Source: an uncultured Succinivibrionaceae bacterium
GTDB lineage: Bacteria > Pseudomonadota > Gammaproteobacteria > Enterobacterales > Succinivibrionaceae
Assembly: GCA_949286015.1 (NCBI GenBank)
Contig: CASEBB010000013.1
Coordinates: 1-32,838, forward strand
Direction of reading: 5' to 3'
DNA: 32,838 nucleotides
Part shown: positions 7,406-19,455 of the stretch, piece after piece
Layout: the number at the start of each line of letters is the position of its first letter
How positions within the stretch are numbered: position 1 is the first letter of the stretch
Notes under the pieces: model-generated
Seen by the model: only the letters and a program-made list of their open reading frames with translations
Told to the model about the DNA's origin: nothing
Databases searched by the model: none
Translations under genes and position numbers: made by a program

Positions 7406-9913
7406 TTACATGCCGATCATGTCAAATGGGGCAAAAGAGATCGTGACCTCGTAGTCCTGCTTGATCGCTGGGTACTTAATCTCCACGCACTTACGGCTCT
7501 GCGAGTAGTACCACGCGGCCGTAGCCTGCTCAAAGTCAGGACGGTGCAGCAGGTGCTCTAAGCGCTGACCATTAAGCTCCACATAGAATGGGCACTTCTC
7601 GTGGTGAATGACGTAGAGCTTGACCGCCTCAATCGGACTGACGAAGTCACCCTCATAGTGGAAGTTAAACTTGGTGAGGGTGCCAGCGTGCATGTCGATC
7701 GTGGTCTTTAAGAACTTGCCCTGCTCGTAATCGTAGGAGACGCCGTCATCCTCATAGAGGGTAAAGGAGCCATCCTTATCTGGAGCGGCAATGATCTCAA
7801 GGTGCTTGACCTGATCACGTTGCAGATTGCGGATCTTGTCCTCAGCCCCCGCCATAACCACCAGCGCACCCGAGCGCAGGAACATTGGAATCGAGGCTAA
7901 GTCTACAGGGAAGGTCACACTCTGCCCACCCTCGTAACGGGCAAAGGTCTTAAAGTCGTAGAAGACCTCACCTGAAGGGAAGTAGACCTCACGCTCAGTT
8001 TGGCCTTGGTGCAAGACGTTAGCGATCAAGAGCGAGGAGCCCAGCATAAAGGTCTCGGCCTCGTCATAGACCTGTGGATCCTGCTGGAACTCAAGGAGCA
8101 TTGGGCTAAAGTAAGGTAATCCCGTCTCATGGGCGCGGTACATCAGCGAGTAAAGGTAAGGCGAGAGACGGTAGCGCAGGTTGATGGCATCGTGAATCAG
8201 ATGCTTGCTGCCGGAGTACATCCATGGCTCAGTTACGGAGTTATCCACATTGACCGAGTGGATAGAGAAGCGTGGCTGGAAGATACCATTTTGTACCCAG
8301 CGCACAAAGAGCTCCTCCGTTGGGGCTGGGCCGTAGAAGCCACCGATATCCGAGCCTTGGTTGGCCACACCTGACAGCGACATGCCCAGCATGGTGCCCA
8401 CGTTGTACTGTAAGGTCTCGTAGCAGGTTAAGTTATCACCAGACCACGTTTGGGCATAACGCTGAATGCCCGCGTGACCCGAGCGGCAGACCACAAATGG
8501 GCGGCGGTTTGGATAGTACTCGCGCAGGGCCTCGACCGTGATCTGGCACATGATGCTGCTGACCACCGACTTCATCTCAAGGACGGTCTTATCTAAGCCC
8601 TCAACCCACATGCGGCAATCTTTGTTGACGATGCTGTCAAGCTCACAGTTGTCATTCCACACACTGTAGCAGCCGTAAGCAAAGAGGTGATCCTTCAGCT
8701 GTTGCTTCCAGTAATCGCGGGTCTCAGGCTTCGTCAAATCAGCAAAATAGCCCTTACCACCCCACCACGTACCGATAGCTGGCTCATCGGACTTCTCTTC
8801 ACGCACAAAGATGTGGTGCGCAAGCATGTCATCCATGTTAGGGTGCACGCAGAGAATGCCTGGCTTGACGTTAGGCGAGACTACAATGCCTAAGTCATCC
8901 ATAGCCTTGAAGTAAGCGGCTGGATCAGGGAAGCGCTCATCGTTCCAGGTAAAGACGCAGCGCTTTAAGCCCGCAGTGGTGTTAGCGGTGCAGTAGCCAG
9001 AAGAGAGCTGGAAGCCGTCAATACCGATATCTTCGGCCTTGGCCGTCTCAATAAACTTGCAGATAGCCTGATCGCAATCCTTATCAAGCTCGGCGTAGTA
9101 CATCGACGAGCCTAAGTAGCCTAAAGCAGCCTTTGGTAAGAGGATGCTCTTGCCAGTAAGGTCGGTGTAACGCTCGATGACCTCTTTGACCGATGGGCCC
9201 TTGATGAAGAAGAGATCGAGATCGCCCTTGCTCACACGCACAGTGGAGTGACGGTGCCAGTAATTGCTCTTACGACGGCCCATGTCGAAATCACACTCCG
9301 AGGAGGTGTGATAGAAGTAGCCGGAGGCAATTTTGGTGTGGTGGTTGAGCTTAATGTAGAAAGGGATGTGCTTGTAGAGGGAATCGGTGTACTGTGGGTC
9401 GTAGCCCATAGCGTCAGTTGGGCACATGGTCATAAAGGCCTGCGCCTTATTGAACTTGCCACCCTTTTCACCAAAGCCGTAGAAACCGTCGTCAGCCTCA
9501 ATTTCGGAGGTGTGCACACGGCGGAAGTTGCTGTCTTCTTGTAAGGCTAAGTCCACACAGTCGCGGTGCAGCACGTTACCCTCAAGGTCTTGAATCTCGA
9601 TCTGATATGGATCCTTGTGCACCATCACCTTTAAGGCGGAGCTTTGCAGGACAAAGCAGTCACCGTTATCGACTAAGGTGCTTGGTGCAACCTCGACCTT
9701 GTGGCGATAAGCGCGCATCATGTCGTCAGTGACGCTGTCCCATGCAGTCATGACCAGCGAGTAGGAGTACTCCTTAAAATCGCCATCGAAACCAGCGCGC
9801 ATACGCACGATTTCTGGGGTCAAAAAGTAAAGGCGCACTGGGCAGGCATCAGTCTGAAGCTCGTAGTAGTTATCTTGAGCCTCACAGCTCAGAGCTTTGG
9901 TGCAAACGCGCAT
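7406..9913 (-). CDS. GH31 family alpha-glycosidase, copy B (cytoplasmic)
   Basis: An 835-residue paralogue of the gene at 130-2751, collinear along its length. GFGEK is at 146-150, MYYAELDKDCDQ at 271-282, the nucleophile motif WNDNCEL has D421, and SGDN has the acid/base D493. There is no signal peptide, so it is a cytoplasmic enzyme. GAGGG lies about five bases before the ATG, a good ribosome binding site. It is divergent from the AraC-type gene across a 950-bp region and lies upstream of dctPQM on the same strand. The second motif residue differs from copy A (NDNC against NDNN), as do neighbouring loop residues, so the two enzymes may prefer different linkages or chain ends. Substrate unknown. 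Confidence 0.92.
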   Translation of the reverse strand: MRVCTKALSCEAQDNYYELQTDACPVRLYFLTPEIVRMRAGFDGDFKEYSYSLVMTAWDSVTDDMMRAYRHKVEVAPSTLVDNGDCFVLQSSALKVMVHKDPYQIEIQDLEGNVLHRDCVDLALQEDSNFRRVHTSEIEADDGFYGFGEKGGKFNKAQAFMTMCPTDAMGYDPQYTDSLYKHIPFYIKLNHHTKIASGYFYHTSSECDFDMGRRKSNYWHRHSTVRVSKGDLDLFFIKGPSVKEVIERYTDLTGKSILLPKAALGYLGSSMYYAELDKDCDQAICKFIETAKAEDIGIDGFQLSSGYCTANTTAGLKRCVFTWNDERFPDPAAYFKAMDDLGIVVSPNVKPGILCVHPNMDDMLAHHIFVREEKSDEPAIGTWWGGKGYFADLTKPETRDYWKQQLKDHLFAYGCYSVWNDNCELDSIVNKDCRMWVEGLDKTVLEMKSVVSSIMCQITVEALREYYPNRRPFVVCRSGHAGIQRYAQTWSGDNLTCYETLQYNVGTMLGMSLSGVANQGSDIGGFYGPAPTEELFVRWVQNGIFQPRFSIHSVNVDNSVTEPWMYSGSKHLIHDAINLRYRLSPYLYSLMYRAHETGLPYFSPMLLEFQQDPQVYDEAETFMLGSSLLIANVLHQGQTEREVYFPSGEVFYDFKTFARYEGGQSVTFPVDLASIPMFLRSGALVVMAGAEDKIRNLQRDQVKHLEIIAAPDKDGSFTLYEDDGVSYDYEQGKFLKTTIDMHAGTLTKFNFHYEGDFVSPIEAVKLYVIHHEKCPFYVELNGQRLEHLLHRPDFEQATAAWYYSQSRKCVEIKYPAIKQDYEVTISFAPFDMIGM

Positions 9914-12388: not shown

Positions 12389-12793
12389 TTAGCGGCTATT
12401 GCCAAAATCTCTGACTGCTTGGTAGATACCCTTAAAGGCGGCGACGACAGCACAGGCCAGAATGAGGTACTTAAAGCTCTGGTAGATGAACACCGCATGC
12501 GCCAAGTTCTGCTCAAAGACCTCATCACTGATGCCGTCACGATGGCCGTAGATGTACCACAGCTCACCGTAGAAAGCCCATGGCACTAAGGCCATGGCCA
12601 AAAAGAACATGGAAGAAGGGCGGCGTCTCTGCTTTTGCATGAGATAGGTGGCATAAACCAGCCACATTGAAGCCAGAGCTAAGACCACATACTCAAGGAT
12701 ATTGGCTGGTGTGAGCGGCGCGGAGATATAGGCTATGGCATACAAAGCCACTAAGTGCGCGCAGTTGATAAATATGTGGCGATACTCTTCCAT
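12389..12793 (-). CDS. Small integral membrane protein of unknown function
   Basis: A 134-residue protein with about four hydrophobic segments (roughly 8-27, 32-52, 62-82 and 102-125). A basic loop QKQRRRP follows the second segment and a short charged loop HRDGISDE follows the third. I do not recognise the family. The even hydrophobic pattern, positive inside loop and a GGGATGAG site about six bases before the ATG support it as real. It stands alone, divergent from the first small RNA promoter at 12929. Nothing in the context gives a function. Confidence 0.6.
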   Translation of the reverse strand: MEEYRHIFINCAHLVALYAIAYISAPLTPANILEYVVLALASMWLVYATYLMQKQRRRPSSMFFLAMALVPWAFYGELWYIYGHRDGISDEVFEQNLAHAVFIYQSFKYLILACAVVAAFKGIYQAVRDFGNSR

Positions 12794-12928
12794 GATGGCT
12801 CATCCCTGTGCTTGGCCTTTAGCTTACAGCGCCCGCCCCTGTAAAGTAGGCAGCGAGCGGTGCGTGCGCTTAGTGTAACGCATTTGTGAGCTGTGACCGT
12901 AGTTTTACGCGCTGCTGAGGCGCGCTAA

Positions 12929-12937
12929 TGCTACAAT
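12929..12937 (+). promoter_or_regulatory. Extended -10 promoter of structured RNA copy 1
   Basis: TGCTACAAT, a TGN-extended -10 element, with no good -35 at 16-18 bp. Exactly the same nine bases precede RNA copies 2 and 3 and the tRNA-Thr leader. Confidence 0.65.
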
Positions 12938-12943
12938 GAGATT

Positions 12944-13128
12944 GCCTGTACTGCTGAGTACAGGGAGGCATCATGCCTAAACTTGGCTCTTTTGATCAAA
13001 TCAACAAGTTAATTTGATAAGAATCAAAGAGCTTGGTACGAGTTATCTGCTGGCTATGTCTAATGCTCGAGCCTTACTTACGAGGGACGCCAGCGCCCAT
13101 TGGTAAGGCTCCGTGTAAGCAATCTTTT
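12944..13128 (+). ncRNA. Candidate structured small RNA, copy 1 of 3
   Basis: A putative transcript of about 185 nt. Hairpin 1 is 12943-12970, with arms CCTGTACT and AGTACAGG and a GCTG loop. Hairpin 2 joins GCTCTTTTGAT (12986-12996) to ATCAAAGAGC (13023-13032). A conserved linker contains GCTGGC (13049-13054). Hairpin 3 joins GAGCCTTAC (13069-13077) to GTAAGGCTC (13103-13111) and has an inner stem GGG/CCC whose loop is GCCAGC (13089-13094), which can pair with the linker. A conserved tail CCGTGTAAGC and a TTTT run follow. Sequences between copies drift while the stems are kept. I do not recognise a known RNA family, and no protein-coding reading fits all three copies. Confidence 0.72.
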
Positions 13129-13334
13129 CCGCCTTTCTTCCTGTCCTTGTCCTGCCTCTGCTCTTCTGCTTTCCCCTCAAGCGCAGCACAGTGCAGCTGA
13201 TCGCCCTATTGCCATTATTCCAACCATTATTGGTCCCTACCATGCCCTGCAAACCGCTGCTGCCAGTGTTTTAGCCTGCGAGTGCGCTTGTGCGCATGAG
13301 GCCACTACGGTTTTGTGCACTACTCATGTGGTGA

Positions 13335-13343
13335 TGCTACAAT
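13335..13343 (+). promoter_or_regulatory. Extended -10 promoter of structured RNA copy 2
   Basis: TGCTACAAT, identical to the element before copies 1 and 3. The upstream sequence differs between copies and has no clear -35. Confidence 0.65.
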
Positions 13344-13348
13344 GATAA

Positions 13349-13508
13349 TGCCTGTACTGCTGAGTACAGGGCAGCATCAAGCTGGGATCGCGACCTTTAA
13401 GATTTAGTTAAAGGTCTTATACGAGCCATTGCTGGCTATGTCAAATACTCGGGCCTTACTCTTAGGGATGCCAGTACCCGTAAGTGAGGCCCCGCGTAAG
13501 CGCTTTTT
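13349..13508 (+). ncRNA. Candidate structured small RNA, copy 2 of 3
   Basis: About 160 nt. Hairpin 1 (13349-13373) has the same CCTGTACT/AGTACAGG stem. Hairpin 2 is a perfect 9-bp stem, GACCTTTAA (13392-13400) with TTAAAGGTC (13408-13416), unrelated in sequence to that of copy 1. The linker GCTGGCTATGTC contains GCTGGC at 13431-13436. Hairpin 3 joins GGGCCTTAC (13451-13459) to GTGAGGCCC (13484-13492) with loop GCCAGT at 13470-13475. The tail CCGCGTAAGC is followed by TTTTT at 13504-13508, the best end signal of the three. Confidence 0.74.
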
Positions 13509-13679
13509 CTCGCTTTTCTTTATCCTTTCCTTCTTCTTCATACGCACAGCGCCTTGCTGCCTGCGTTCCTCTGTTTCCCTCTTGGTTTCCATTGTTCTTC
13601 TCAGTAGAGCCACTCTGCAAGGCAGACGCTGCCACCTTTAGCGTGCGCACTTTACCCCTTAGCAACCACTAAGTGAACG

Positions 13680-13688
13680 TGCTACAAT
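13680..13688 (+). promoter_or_regulatory. Extended -10 promoter of structured RNA copy 3
   Basis: TGCTACAAT again. The bases after it (GAGATTGCCTG) match copy 1, so the start point is probably conserved. Confidence 0.65.
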
Positions 13689-13693
13689 GAGAT

Positions 13694-13866
13694 TGCCTGC
13701 GCTACCGAGTGCAGGGGGTATTACGCCGCGACTTCGCTATTTACTGGATGTCTACTGCGTAGACTAGATGTAAATAGCTGGTACAAGTTCATGCTGGCAA
13801 TGTTGAAAGCTCGGGCCTTGCTCTTAGGGATGCCAGTACCCATGAGTGAGGCCCCGTGTAAGCTTC
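13694..13866 (+). ncRNA. Candidate structured small RNA, copy 3 of 3
   Basis: About 170 nt. Hairpin 1 (13694-13720) has changed to CCTGCGCT/AGTGCAGG with loop ACCG and still pairs fully, with one G-T. Hairpin 2 joins GCTATTTAC (13736-13744) to GTAAATAGC (13770-13778), with a second stem TCTAC/GTAGA inside. The linker has GCTGGCA from 13793. Hairpin 3 is the longest, GGGCCTTGCTC (13813-13823) with GAGTGAGGCCC (13844-13854), loop TGCCAGT from 13831. The tail CCGTGTAAGC is conserved, but no T run follows, so the 3' end is uncertain. Confidence 0.72.
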
Positions 13867-14076
13867 TATCCTACCTTTACCCCACCTGCCACAGCATCGA
13901 AAGCATCCCCCTCTCCTGCTTCCTCTCATAGAACGCTGTAACCACCTCTATACTCACGACCTCTCTACCACAACCATTCGCACCTACCACCACAGCTACC
14001 AAAAGCTCTTACCACCTCTGCCTTTACCCCTCTTACTCCTGCGCAAACGGCTTATTTATCAGCAAAAACAGACTTT

Positions 14077-14092
14077 TGTGATATTTTTCACA
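14077..14092. promoter_or_regulatory. Perfect CRP-type palindrome
   Basis: TGTGA-TATTTT-TCACA matches the CRP consensus TGTGA-N6-TCACA exactly and extends outward with T and A runs. It lies just upstream of the -35 of the tRNA-Thr promoter, centred near -50 from the expected start. Confidence 0.6.
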
Positions 14093-14098
14093 AAAAGC

Positions 14099-14127
14099 TT
14101 TACGCTCCTAATTCATTCTGCTACAAT
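14099..14127 (+). promoter_or_regulatory. Promoter of tRNA-Thr
   Basis: TTTACG (14099-14104), 17 bp, TACAAT (14122-14127), with the TG extension just before it. Start expected near 14134, giving a leader of about 74 nt that contains the hairpin CACTAA/TTAGTG. Confidence 0.7.
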
Positions 14128-14207
14128 AGCCGCCGTTCGATGCTCAGGGGCAAACGCCACTGCGTCAAACCCGCACTAATATCAGCTTAGTGTGGCCTCA
14201 TCTCTGT

Positions 14208-14283
14208 GCTGGATTAGCTCAGTCGGTAGAGCAGTTGATTCGTAATCAAAAGGTCGCAAGTTCGATTCTTGTATCCAGCACCA
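14208..14283 (+). tRNA. tRNA-Thr (anticodon CGT)
   Basis: A 76-nt cloverleaf including the encoded CCA. The acceptor arms GCTGGAT and ATCCAGC pair fully, the D arm is GCTC...GAGC, the anticodon loop is TTCGTAA, and the T arm carries GTTCGATTC. The anticodon CGT reads ACG (Thr). The top pair of the anticodon stem is a G-A mismatch. Discriminator base A. No second tRNA follows. Confidence 0.95.
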
Positions 14284-14507
14284 CTTCTCTTCTTTCTCTC
14301 TTTCCTCTCTTTCCTGATCCTGCTGCAAAGCTTCTTTACGCCCTTTCTGTCGCGCTATTCTTACCTACAAGTGTCTTGTTGTGCCTATTCTGCATGTGCT
14401 CTGGCTTCGTCAGTTACACTGCTTAGGCTGGTGTTGTGACCACAGCTCCTGCAAAAGAGCTCCTACCTGATCCTTCGCGTGTCCACACAAGCCTACAAAG
14501 CCAGCGA

Positions 14508-17739: not shown

Positions 17740-19455
17740 TTAAAACAGGAAGTAACGCTGCGCCAGTGGCAGCTCCTGAGCAGGCTCGCAAGTTAAGAGC
17801 TCGCCATTGGCCCGCACCTCGTAAGTCTCAGGATCCACCTCAATCTGCGGCATGGCGTCATTAAGCACCATGTTGGTCTTAAAGATATTGCGCGTGCCCT
17901 GTACCGGCACTAAGGTGCGATGTGAGCCTAAGCCCTGTAGGTGCTCCTTTCCACCCTTATCAAGGAAAGCCTGCGACACAAAAGTGCAGCTGTTGTAAGC
18001 TGGCGCTAAGCCCAAAGCACCAAACATTGGGCGGGCATACACCGGCTGTGGCGTTGGAATCGAGGCATTGATATCGCCCATTAAGGCCGAGGCAATGATG
18101 CCGCCCTTAATCACCATGGATGGCTTCACCCCAAAGAACGCAGGCCGCCACAAAACTAAGTCCGCCAGCTTGCCTACCGTCACCGAGCCAATCTCACGGC
18201 TTAAGCCGTGGGTAATAGCAGGATTGATGGTGACCTTAGCAATGTAGCGCCGCGCACGGATGTTGTCGTTACCCTTACCCGCATCCTCAGGTAAAGCACC
18301 ACGTTGCACCTTCATCTTGTGCGCAGTTTGCCACGTGCGGGTAATGACCTCACCTACACGTCCCATCGCCTGCGAATCTGAGGAGATCATGGATAAGGCG
18401 CCCATGTCCTGCAAGATATCCTCAGCCGCAATGGTCTCTTTGCGAATACGCGAATCAGCAAAGGCCACATCCTCAGGCAAGCGTGGGTTTAAGTGGTGGC
18501 AGACCATCAACATGTCTAAATGCTCATCAATGGTATTGACGGTGTAAGGACGTGTTGGATTGGTGGATGATGGCAGCACAAAAGGCAGGCTGCAAGCCTT
18601 AATGATGTCTGGCGCGTGGCCACCACCGGCACCTTCAGTGTGATAGGTATGGATGGTACGACCGCCAAATGCCGCAATCGTGCTCTCCACAAAGCCAGCC
18701 TCATTGAGGGTGTCTGTGTGAATAGCCACCTGCACATCGTACTGGTCAGCTACCCCTAAGCAGCAGTTAATCGCCGCTGGCGTCGAGCCCCAATCCTCAT
18801 GTAGCTTTAAGCCACACGCCCCCGCCTCAATTTGCTCAGCTAAAGCTGCAGGCGCCGCACTATTGCCCTTGCCTAAAAAGCCAATGTTCACCGGCAGGTA
18901 TTCAGAAGCTAACATCATCTGCTCTAAGTACCAAGGGCCTGGGGTGCAGGTGGTAGCATTGGTGCCCGTTGCTGGGCCGGTACCACCGCCAATTAAGGTA
19001 GTAACACCCGAGCACAGCGCTTCTGCCGCCTGTTGTGGCGAAATGAGGTGCACATGGGAGTCAATGGCACCTGCGGTCACGATTAAGCCCTCACCGGCAA
19101 TGATCTCCGTGCTGGGGCCAATGATCATGGTGACATGGGGCTGCACTTGGGGGTTACCCGCCTTACCTAAGGCGGCAATGCGGCCGTTCTTGATGCCGAT
19201 GTCGCACTTAAAGATACCCGCTGCATCCAGCACCACGGCATTGGTAATCACCGTGTCCATGCTGATTTCAGCCAGCGCTTGGCTTTGGCCCATACCATCA
19301 CGAATAGTCTTGCCACCACCAAAAGCCACTTCCTCACCATAGACGGTGGCATCGTGGTCAATCTCAATAATGAGGTCGGTATCGGCTAAGCGAATCTTAT
19401 CGCCCACGGTTGGGCCGTAGAGCTCGGCGTATTGCGCCCGCGAAATAGTCTGCAT
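17740..19455 (-). CDS. ureC: Urease alpha subunit (catalytic)
   Basis: A 571-residue urea amidohydrolase that splits urea to ammonia and carbamate at a two-nickel centre. All ligands are present at the positions known from Klebsiella urease: H134 and H136 (DSHVHL), the lysine to be carbamylated K217 (GLKLHEDWG), H219, H246 (VAIHTDTLN), H272, and D360 (SSDSQAMGR). The flap residues C319 and H320 are also intact (MVCHHLNP). Length is normal. Its ATG overlaps the ureB stop (TGATG), so ureABC is translationally coupled. The tandem repeats start right after the stop. Confidence 0.99.

Follow-up and report, generated by a model that had tools for sequence, protein, structure and literature searches.

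Tandem copies of a structured, apparently noncoding RNA family upstream of tRNA-Thr in a probable Anaerobiospirillum genome

Results

The stretch of DNA analysed here (hereafter, the window) is 32,838 nucleotides long and is one contig (C13) of a 4.47-Mb draft genome (G000) with a completeness of 93.72%. Given that the neighbouring ureG had its best match, among at least 80 loci, in Candidatus Anaerobiospirillum merdipullorum (78% identity), the host is read as a species of Anaerobiospirillum, which is probably its genus. Two similar long proteins, which resemble by eye glycoside hydrolases of family 31, are encoded at positions 130–2751 and 7406–9913, and a TRAP-type transporter look-alike sits between their genes. 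At 19023–19307, furthermore, Rfam gave a match to 5_ureB_sRNA (62.8 bits, gathering threshold 40) on the strand opposite to what appears by eye to be the gene for the urease alpha subunit; this match may reflect conserved coding sequence and not an antisense RNA.

The subject of this study is an array of three neighbouring units on the plus strand, just upstream of tRNA-Thr(CGT) on the same strand, and adjoined by a gene for a 134-aa protein (12389–12793, minus strand) that is present in 10 of 10 genus genomes and has no Pfam match. The units measure 157–182 nt in the coordinates used here; their 5' and 3' ends are the limits of the alignment, and the true RNA ends may differ. Each unit is preceded by an extended −10 promoter-like site, TGCTACAAT, which was located by motif search at 12929–12937, 13335–13343 and 13680–13688 (the last also by a promoter scan), exactly where a first-pass annotation of this DNA had put a shared extended −10. 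Unit 1 RNA spans 12940–13121 by alignment (a full-unit covariance model, R1, in which unit 1 itself is included, matched 12940–13125 with an E value of 6.6e-46), and its predicted pairings comprise hairpin P1 (12945–12964), a small hairpin P1c (12967–12977), a variable hairpin P2 (12986–13032), the left strand of a pseudoknot, UGCUGGC (13048–13054), and hairpin P3 (13069–13111), whose loop strand GCCAGCG lies at 13089–13095. For unit 2, the RNA was placed by alignment and R1 at 13346–13502, with P1 predicted at 13351–13370, P1c at 13372–13384, P2 at 13392–13416, UGCUGGC at 13430–13436 and P3 at 13451–13492 (loop strand GCCAGUA, 13470–13476). Unit 3 RNA was placed in the same way at 13691–13864, and its P1 (13696–13715), P1c (13717–13727), P2 (13736–13778), UGCUGGC (13792–13798) and P3 (13813–13854; loop strand GCCAGUA, 13832–13838) are again predicted pairings.

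The three units align into one common architecture, namely, P1, P1c and the variable P2 followed by a conserved 3' domain with P3 and the pseudoknot. In each, TGCTACAAT ends 8 nt before P1 begins, and in all three copies the conserved part extends to GYGUAAGC. Direct repeats within 12400–14300 fall inside the units or slightly beyond them, except for two short families (D5 and D6). The first-pass annotation had described three tandem copies with three hairpins in a common order; the copies do align in that way and all three hairpins are predicted, but a fourth (P1c, between its hairpins 1 and 2) and the pseudoknot had been overlooked. The P1c stems are GGCA/UGCC, CAGC/GCUG and GGU/GCC in copies 1, 2 and 3, respectively, each 5' of P2. 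Whole units fold better than their dinucleotide shuffles, with z-scores of −3.28, −2.95 and −2.77 for units 1, 2 and 3, and with 0, 2 and 1 of 200 shuffles folding as well.

At the corresponding locus of a genus-mate (G002) there are four units, likewise just upstream of its tRNA-Thr(CGT) and on the strand of that tRNA, and this recurrence supports the earlier proposal of an RNA that is structured, apparently noncoding and present in several copies, each with a promoter-like site of its own. By similarity, its copies a, b and d correspond to units 1, 2 and 3, and copy c is an extra one; three of the four are 88–93% identical to the window copies. The spacer upstream of copy c matches that of unit 3 (143/155 identical), which suggests that recombination between copies has probably added or removed units. 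Between P1 and P2, copy c (L093 3234–3022, minus strand) also contains a run of 14 A residues and additional predicted hairpins. In another genus genome, G001, about 370 bases separate the genes on either side of the window array, with the tRNA present and no units between them. The flanking 134-aa protein is 96% identical in G002 and 77% in G001, the next closest. Such close spacing of the flanking genes was not seen in the other genus genomes, and no empty site is therefore shown there.

Homologues were searched for with R1 and with a model of the 3' domain, R2, both built from the same seven units. Convincing R1 matches came from two of 195 relatives (G000 included) and from two of 10 genus genomes, and convincing R2 matches from two of 56 family genomes; on G000, R2 gave the three units and one match at E 9.8. 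A covariance-model search of relatives had been set beforehand as a check on the proposal, which withstood it, the homologues being found solely in one sister species. As the first pass of these searches scores few candidates (13 per genome for R1 in the 195 relatives, at most 79 for R2 in the 56 family genomes), divergent relatives may be missed. The extra R1 matches in the 195 relatives (G067, E 0.048) and in the 10 genus genomes (three, E 0.055–0.86) were aligned and judged to be chance, and the best one (G001:C19) lies over the beginning of a 509-aa frame. An extra R2 match in the 56 family genomes (G022, E 0.084) was also judged to be chance, and unit 2 searched by blastn against 116 genomes gave, beyond G000 and G002, two short matches (G091 and G104) that look protein-coding by eye. 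An unfiltered R1 scan of ten stretches, drawn from eight further genomes of the genus, reached at best an unconvincing E of 0.035, and R2 had no match at E ≤ 1 in the same ten stretches or in L013. In a direct-repeat scan of seven tRNA-side loci of other genomes, no unit-like array was evident by eye, and short direct repeats were present in four (L125, L127, L130 and L132). Unit 2, the one unit used as a query, had no match in phages or plasmids, and neither of two exact patterns matched viral contigs; divergent relatives could escape both searches.

With respect to known families, Rfam 15 gave no match over the units at the gathering thresholds, in agreement with the earlier statement that no known family was recognised. 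At E ≤ 10, one chance-level match was returned on the other strand (sR52, 13479–13548, E 4, 14.7 bits against a threshold of 50). Searches for tmRNA and tRNA gave no match over the units above chance, and 6S RNA (RF00013) had no match at the array locus. No earlier description of the RNA family was found in the literature searched, of which subscription material was a small part; by title, the same literature contained no small RNA paper on the genus Anaerobiospirillum and none relating Succinivibrionaceae to Hfq.

The units are, furthermore, apparently noncoding, as judged from sequence. Among frames of at least 14 aa, judged by eye, we saw none on either strand that is common to all seven units, and no shared hydrophobic one; neither a coding gene at that size limit nor an Rfam family, either of which had been named in advance as counting against the proposal, was thus found over the units. 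The earlier claim that no shared protein frame exists holds for copy 1, which is shifted by one base, but not for copies 2 and 3, where an open frame (MLA...RALLLGMPVP) runs through the 3' domain as it does in G002 copies b and c. A 14-codon frame is present in P1c/P2 of copy 1 and G002 copy a. The C-termini of the unit frames extend into the spacer, and the changes have no third-codon-position bias by eye.

P1, P3 and the loop pairing are common to all seven units in the two genomes and the aligned P2 to six; copy c, as aligned, breaks five of six P2 pairs, and an alternative stem is possible there. P2 had been described as pairing well in every copy with a completely different sequence. Good pairing is again predicted, the P2 region folding with z-scores of −2.7 to −3.8 in all seven units, but the sequence is not wholly different: the basal stems of window copies 1, 2 and 3 (GCTCTTT, GACCTTT and GCTATTT with their complements) are alike at their ends and hence have a G...TTT frame in common. 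Folded without the pseudoknot, the 3' domain is not clearly better than shuffles in five of the seven (z −0.4 to −1.5), and its z-score is −2.6 in unit 2 and −2.4 in G002 copy b.

Covariation was evaluated on the seven-unit alignment (A2) for P1, the basal six pairs of P2, P3, the GGG/CCC inner stem and the loop pairing. Paired cells amount to 97.5% of 238, compared with 93.1% in shuffles and 37–55% when the helices are slid, and the covariation score is 0.244, compared with 0.167 in shuffles, none of 500 reaching it. The number of pairs with two-sided changes (5, against 3.3 in shuffles) is no standout, being reached by 57/500, and neither are further pair types, reached by 482/500. The two-sided changes are located in P1 (UA/CG), P2 (three pairs) and P3 (GC/AU). 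Between window copies, the changes that had been reported in hairpin 1 are seen as a two-sided UA to CG and a one-sided AU to GU, and the second pair of hairpin 3 is indeed A-U in the first copy and G-C in the other two. For the 3' domain alone (alignment A3), covariation was not significant (the score was reached by 25/500 shuffles and the paired fraction by 141/500), because this domain is too uniform. A closing helix of five pairs around the 3' domain was considered and left unsupported, with 82.9% of its cells paired. Since homologues come solely from one sister species, the covariation rests on seven related sequences.

Comparison of the three orthologous pairs, i.e., without G002 copy c, which has no partner, revealed 37 substitutions: of 272 paired positions, 9 are substituted, and of 241 unpaired positions, 28 (Fisher p 0.00028). 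The paired positions had been set by hand from these very sequences, a choice that biases the comparison towards this outcome. Eight pairs have changed between orthologues: in the register used, pairing is lost at one in P1c and at one in P3, one regains pairing from a mismatch, four remain paired through a one-sided change, and one is a compensatory UA to CG in the inner stem of P2, between unit 3 and G002 copy d. Over whole units, identity to G002 (184/210, 177/190 and 184/205) does not exceed that of most flanks (143/155, 110/122 and 203/241), so the constraint is seen in the placement of substitutions and in the paralog comparisons, not in the overall rate. The unit 1–unit 2 spacer is far less similar than the other flanks (81/177) and may have been swapped out instead of drifted. 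The compensatory changes in P1, P2 and P3 and the avoidance of paired bases support an RNA product, and on these seven related sequences the earlier suggestion of selection on RNA structure is upheld.

UGCUGGC, between P2 and P3, is invariant in all seven units and complementary to the P3 loop GCCAGYR, whose two variable bases switch solely among pairing letters. For each of the seven (non-independent) units, no more than 0.7% of shuffled upstream strands reach the energy of this duplex, and 0.3–6.0% of shuffles match the longest run of pairing alone. Unit 2 and G002 copy b differ at just two positions in the 3' domain, and these differences extend the loop pairing from 7 to 9. Changes in the pseudoknot pairing are one-sided only. 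Support for the predicted pseudoknot is, in sum, moderate and not decisive.

As for promoters, the pattern TGNTANAAT, searched on both strands, occurs four times in the window, always on the plus strand, with three occurrences ahead of the units and one ahead of tRNA-Thr; its chance expectation in the window is 2.98, so that the count alone is unremarkable, and the notable point is that every occurrence sits ahead of an RNA gene on a single strand. On the unit strand of the 6.5-kb G002 stretch, all five occurrences precede the four units and the tRNA. The pattern is kept ahead of seven of seven units in the two genomes, with C, A, T or G as the third base of the hexamer. A common −35 element was not evident ahead of the units. 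The promoter scan gave plus-strand sites at unit 3 and the tRNA and one more on the minus strand. Upstream of the tRNA-Thr promoter, a perfect CRP-type palindrome, TGTGATATTTTTCACA (14077–14092), was matched once against 0.04 expected; its surroundings are identical in G002, and the site is missing from the G001 interval.

At the 3' side, the longest T-run within 30 nt past the unit is 4, 5 and 3 for units 1, 2 and 3 and 4, 5, 3 and 3 for G002 copies a, b, c and d, hence at most 4 in five of seven. A terminator scan of the window stretch found one terminator-like site on the forward strand, not above chance. By T-runs, terminator scan and the alignment-based ends, an intrinsic terminator with a short 3' U tail was not seen in most units. 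The DNA past six of the seven copies (the exception being copy a) and past the tRNA is C-rich and G-poor, in the top 2.4% of the C-minus-G values of the window. Together with the few T-runs, such flanks suggest that most copies end by Rho-dependent termination or processing.

Possible protein partners were also searched for in G000. Hfq (PF17209) had no match among five candidates scored (controls matched in 5/14), and a single genome that is 93.72% complete cannot prove its absence. Two ProQ-domain matches were over the cut-off, in frames of 363 aa (L157 1336–2427) and 646 aa (L158 937–2877, minus strand); both proteins have long low-complexity parts, and the larger carries RTRRTKAQIEADN and GGYRPQG repeats. 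In a search for antisense targets, four short blast matches were obtained in G000, none of them convincing.

Discussion

The family appears to be new, while tandem sibling small RNAs are already known as a kind; according to PMC4211561, paralogous small RNA genes in tandem are thought to be born by duplication, some being redundant and some not. With at least two related genes per genome (three in G000 and four in G002), the units agree with this kind and resemble OmrA/OmrB, PrrF1/PrrF2 and AbcR1/AbcR2, which in the same source are paralogous genes side by side. Unlike those pairs, the present array has three or four copies, a P2 that is largely replaced and a 3' domain capable of a pseudoknot, and most units have no clear terminator in a genome without an Hfq match.

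We consider it possible, albeit short of probable, that the units are lineage-specific tandem sibling genes for one structured noncoding RNA family, each with its own promoter, which act with a ProQ-type protein and pair with mRNAs through the P3 loop or UGCUGGC. The extended −10 promoter ahead of each unit would drive its transcription, and the RNA is predicted to be bound by a ProQ-type protein and to pair with target mRNAs through either the P3 loop or the matching UGCUGGC strand. The pseudoknot could then be a switch between a closed state, with the loop on UGCUGGC, and an open one with the seed exposed; the siblings would be partly redundant, and the fast-changing P2 may be a structural spacer or a copy-specific part. 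ProQ prefers structured RNAs and many ProQ-mediated sRNA–mRNA pairings use stem-loops from both partners (PMC9977716), and ProQ/FinO domains recognise terminator hairpins with a 3' tail and 3' nucleotide (PMC9674577). The units are like RocR and other ProQ/FinO-bound RNAs in their predicted structure, in their long 3' hairpin and in the ProQ-domain proteins of the genome; they differ in that most have no evident U-tailed terminator and that the hairpin loop can, by prediction, pair internally. It is this fit to ProQ, set against the lack of an obvious terminator, that makes our preference for ProQ-dependent loop pairing tentative.

The main rival is a protein-binding role, in which the RNAs titrate or scaffold a protein without mRNA pairing, as 6S RNA or CsrB do. 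A high degree of structure is predicted for the core, and the mutual complementarity of loop and UGCUGGC would hide a seed. One AGGGA (ANGGA), which resembles the CsrA motif, is kept in P3 of all seven units; it overlaps, however, the GGG/CCC inner stem. CsrB-type sponges carry many GGA motifs in loops, whereas each unit has one or two and just the stem-overlapping one is shared, even though the units are like CsrB/RsmZ in being multi-copy structured RNAs with drifting sequence. The units are also comparable to 6S RNA in length and structure, but the 6S match over the cut-off in G000 sits elsewhere, on contig C144. Taken together, these points leave a protein-binding role unlikely, though it deserves to be kept in mind.

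It is rather improbable that the array is a leftover of duplication or a drifting repeat that has little function today. Its occurrence in two sister species only, the difference in copy number (3 versus 4), the A-run and extra hairpins of G002 copy c, and a whole-unit identity no higher than that of most flanks would all suit such decay; substitutions nonetheless avoid paired positions, compensatory changes are present, and the promoter-like motif is kept in seven of seven units.

The units might instead pair with mRNAs by single-stranded seeds, with another chaperone than ProQ or with none, a possibility to which we give little weight. The P2–P3 stretch does contain the invariant UGCUGGC, but this is complementary to the P3 loop of the same RNA. 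More speculative, and in our view doubtful, is an extension of the preferred reading of ProQ-dependent siblings, in which the RNA family arose within this lineage, in a bacterium without Hfq and with two ProQ-domain proteins; its members would combine a constant pseudoknot switch with a hypervariable hairpin that is exchanged as a copy-specific specificity cassette, the array being a small, evolvable bank of regulatory RNAs that acquires and drops units through recombination.

That the units are merely leader or spacer of a tRNA-Thr precursor, relevant to tRNA expression alone, is very unlikely: in both genomes they do closely precede tRNA-Thr(CGT) and share its strand, but this tRNA has its own TGCTACAAT and −35-like hexamer, G001 has the tRNA and no units, and the C-rich, G-poor tract past most units would favour termination. 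Hardly credible at all is a role as genes for small proteins, e.g., a type I toxin, or as RNAs antisense to one, for although the units share tandem repeats with Sib/Ibs and Ldr/Rdl (which express structured RNAs, those of the units being predicted) and have the 3'-domain and 14-codon frames in some copies, copy 1 is frame-shifted, the C-termini enter the spacer, third-position bias is lacking by eye, and no small hydrophobic frame was seen in all units on either strand.

In conclusion, the array represents a structured RNA family without an Rfam match whose origin can be dated, as it is found in two sister species and not between the flanking genes in G001. It would hence serve as a test case for the birth and multiplication of small RNA families and, furthermore, for how mRNAs are regulated when a genome yields two large ProQ-domain proteins and no Hfq match.
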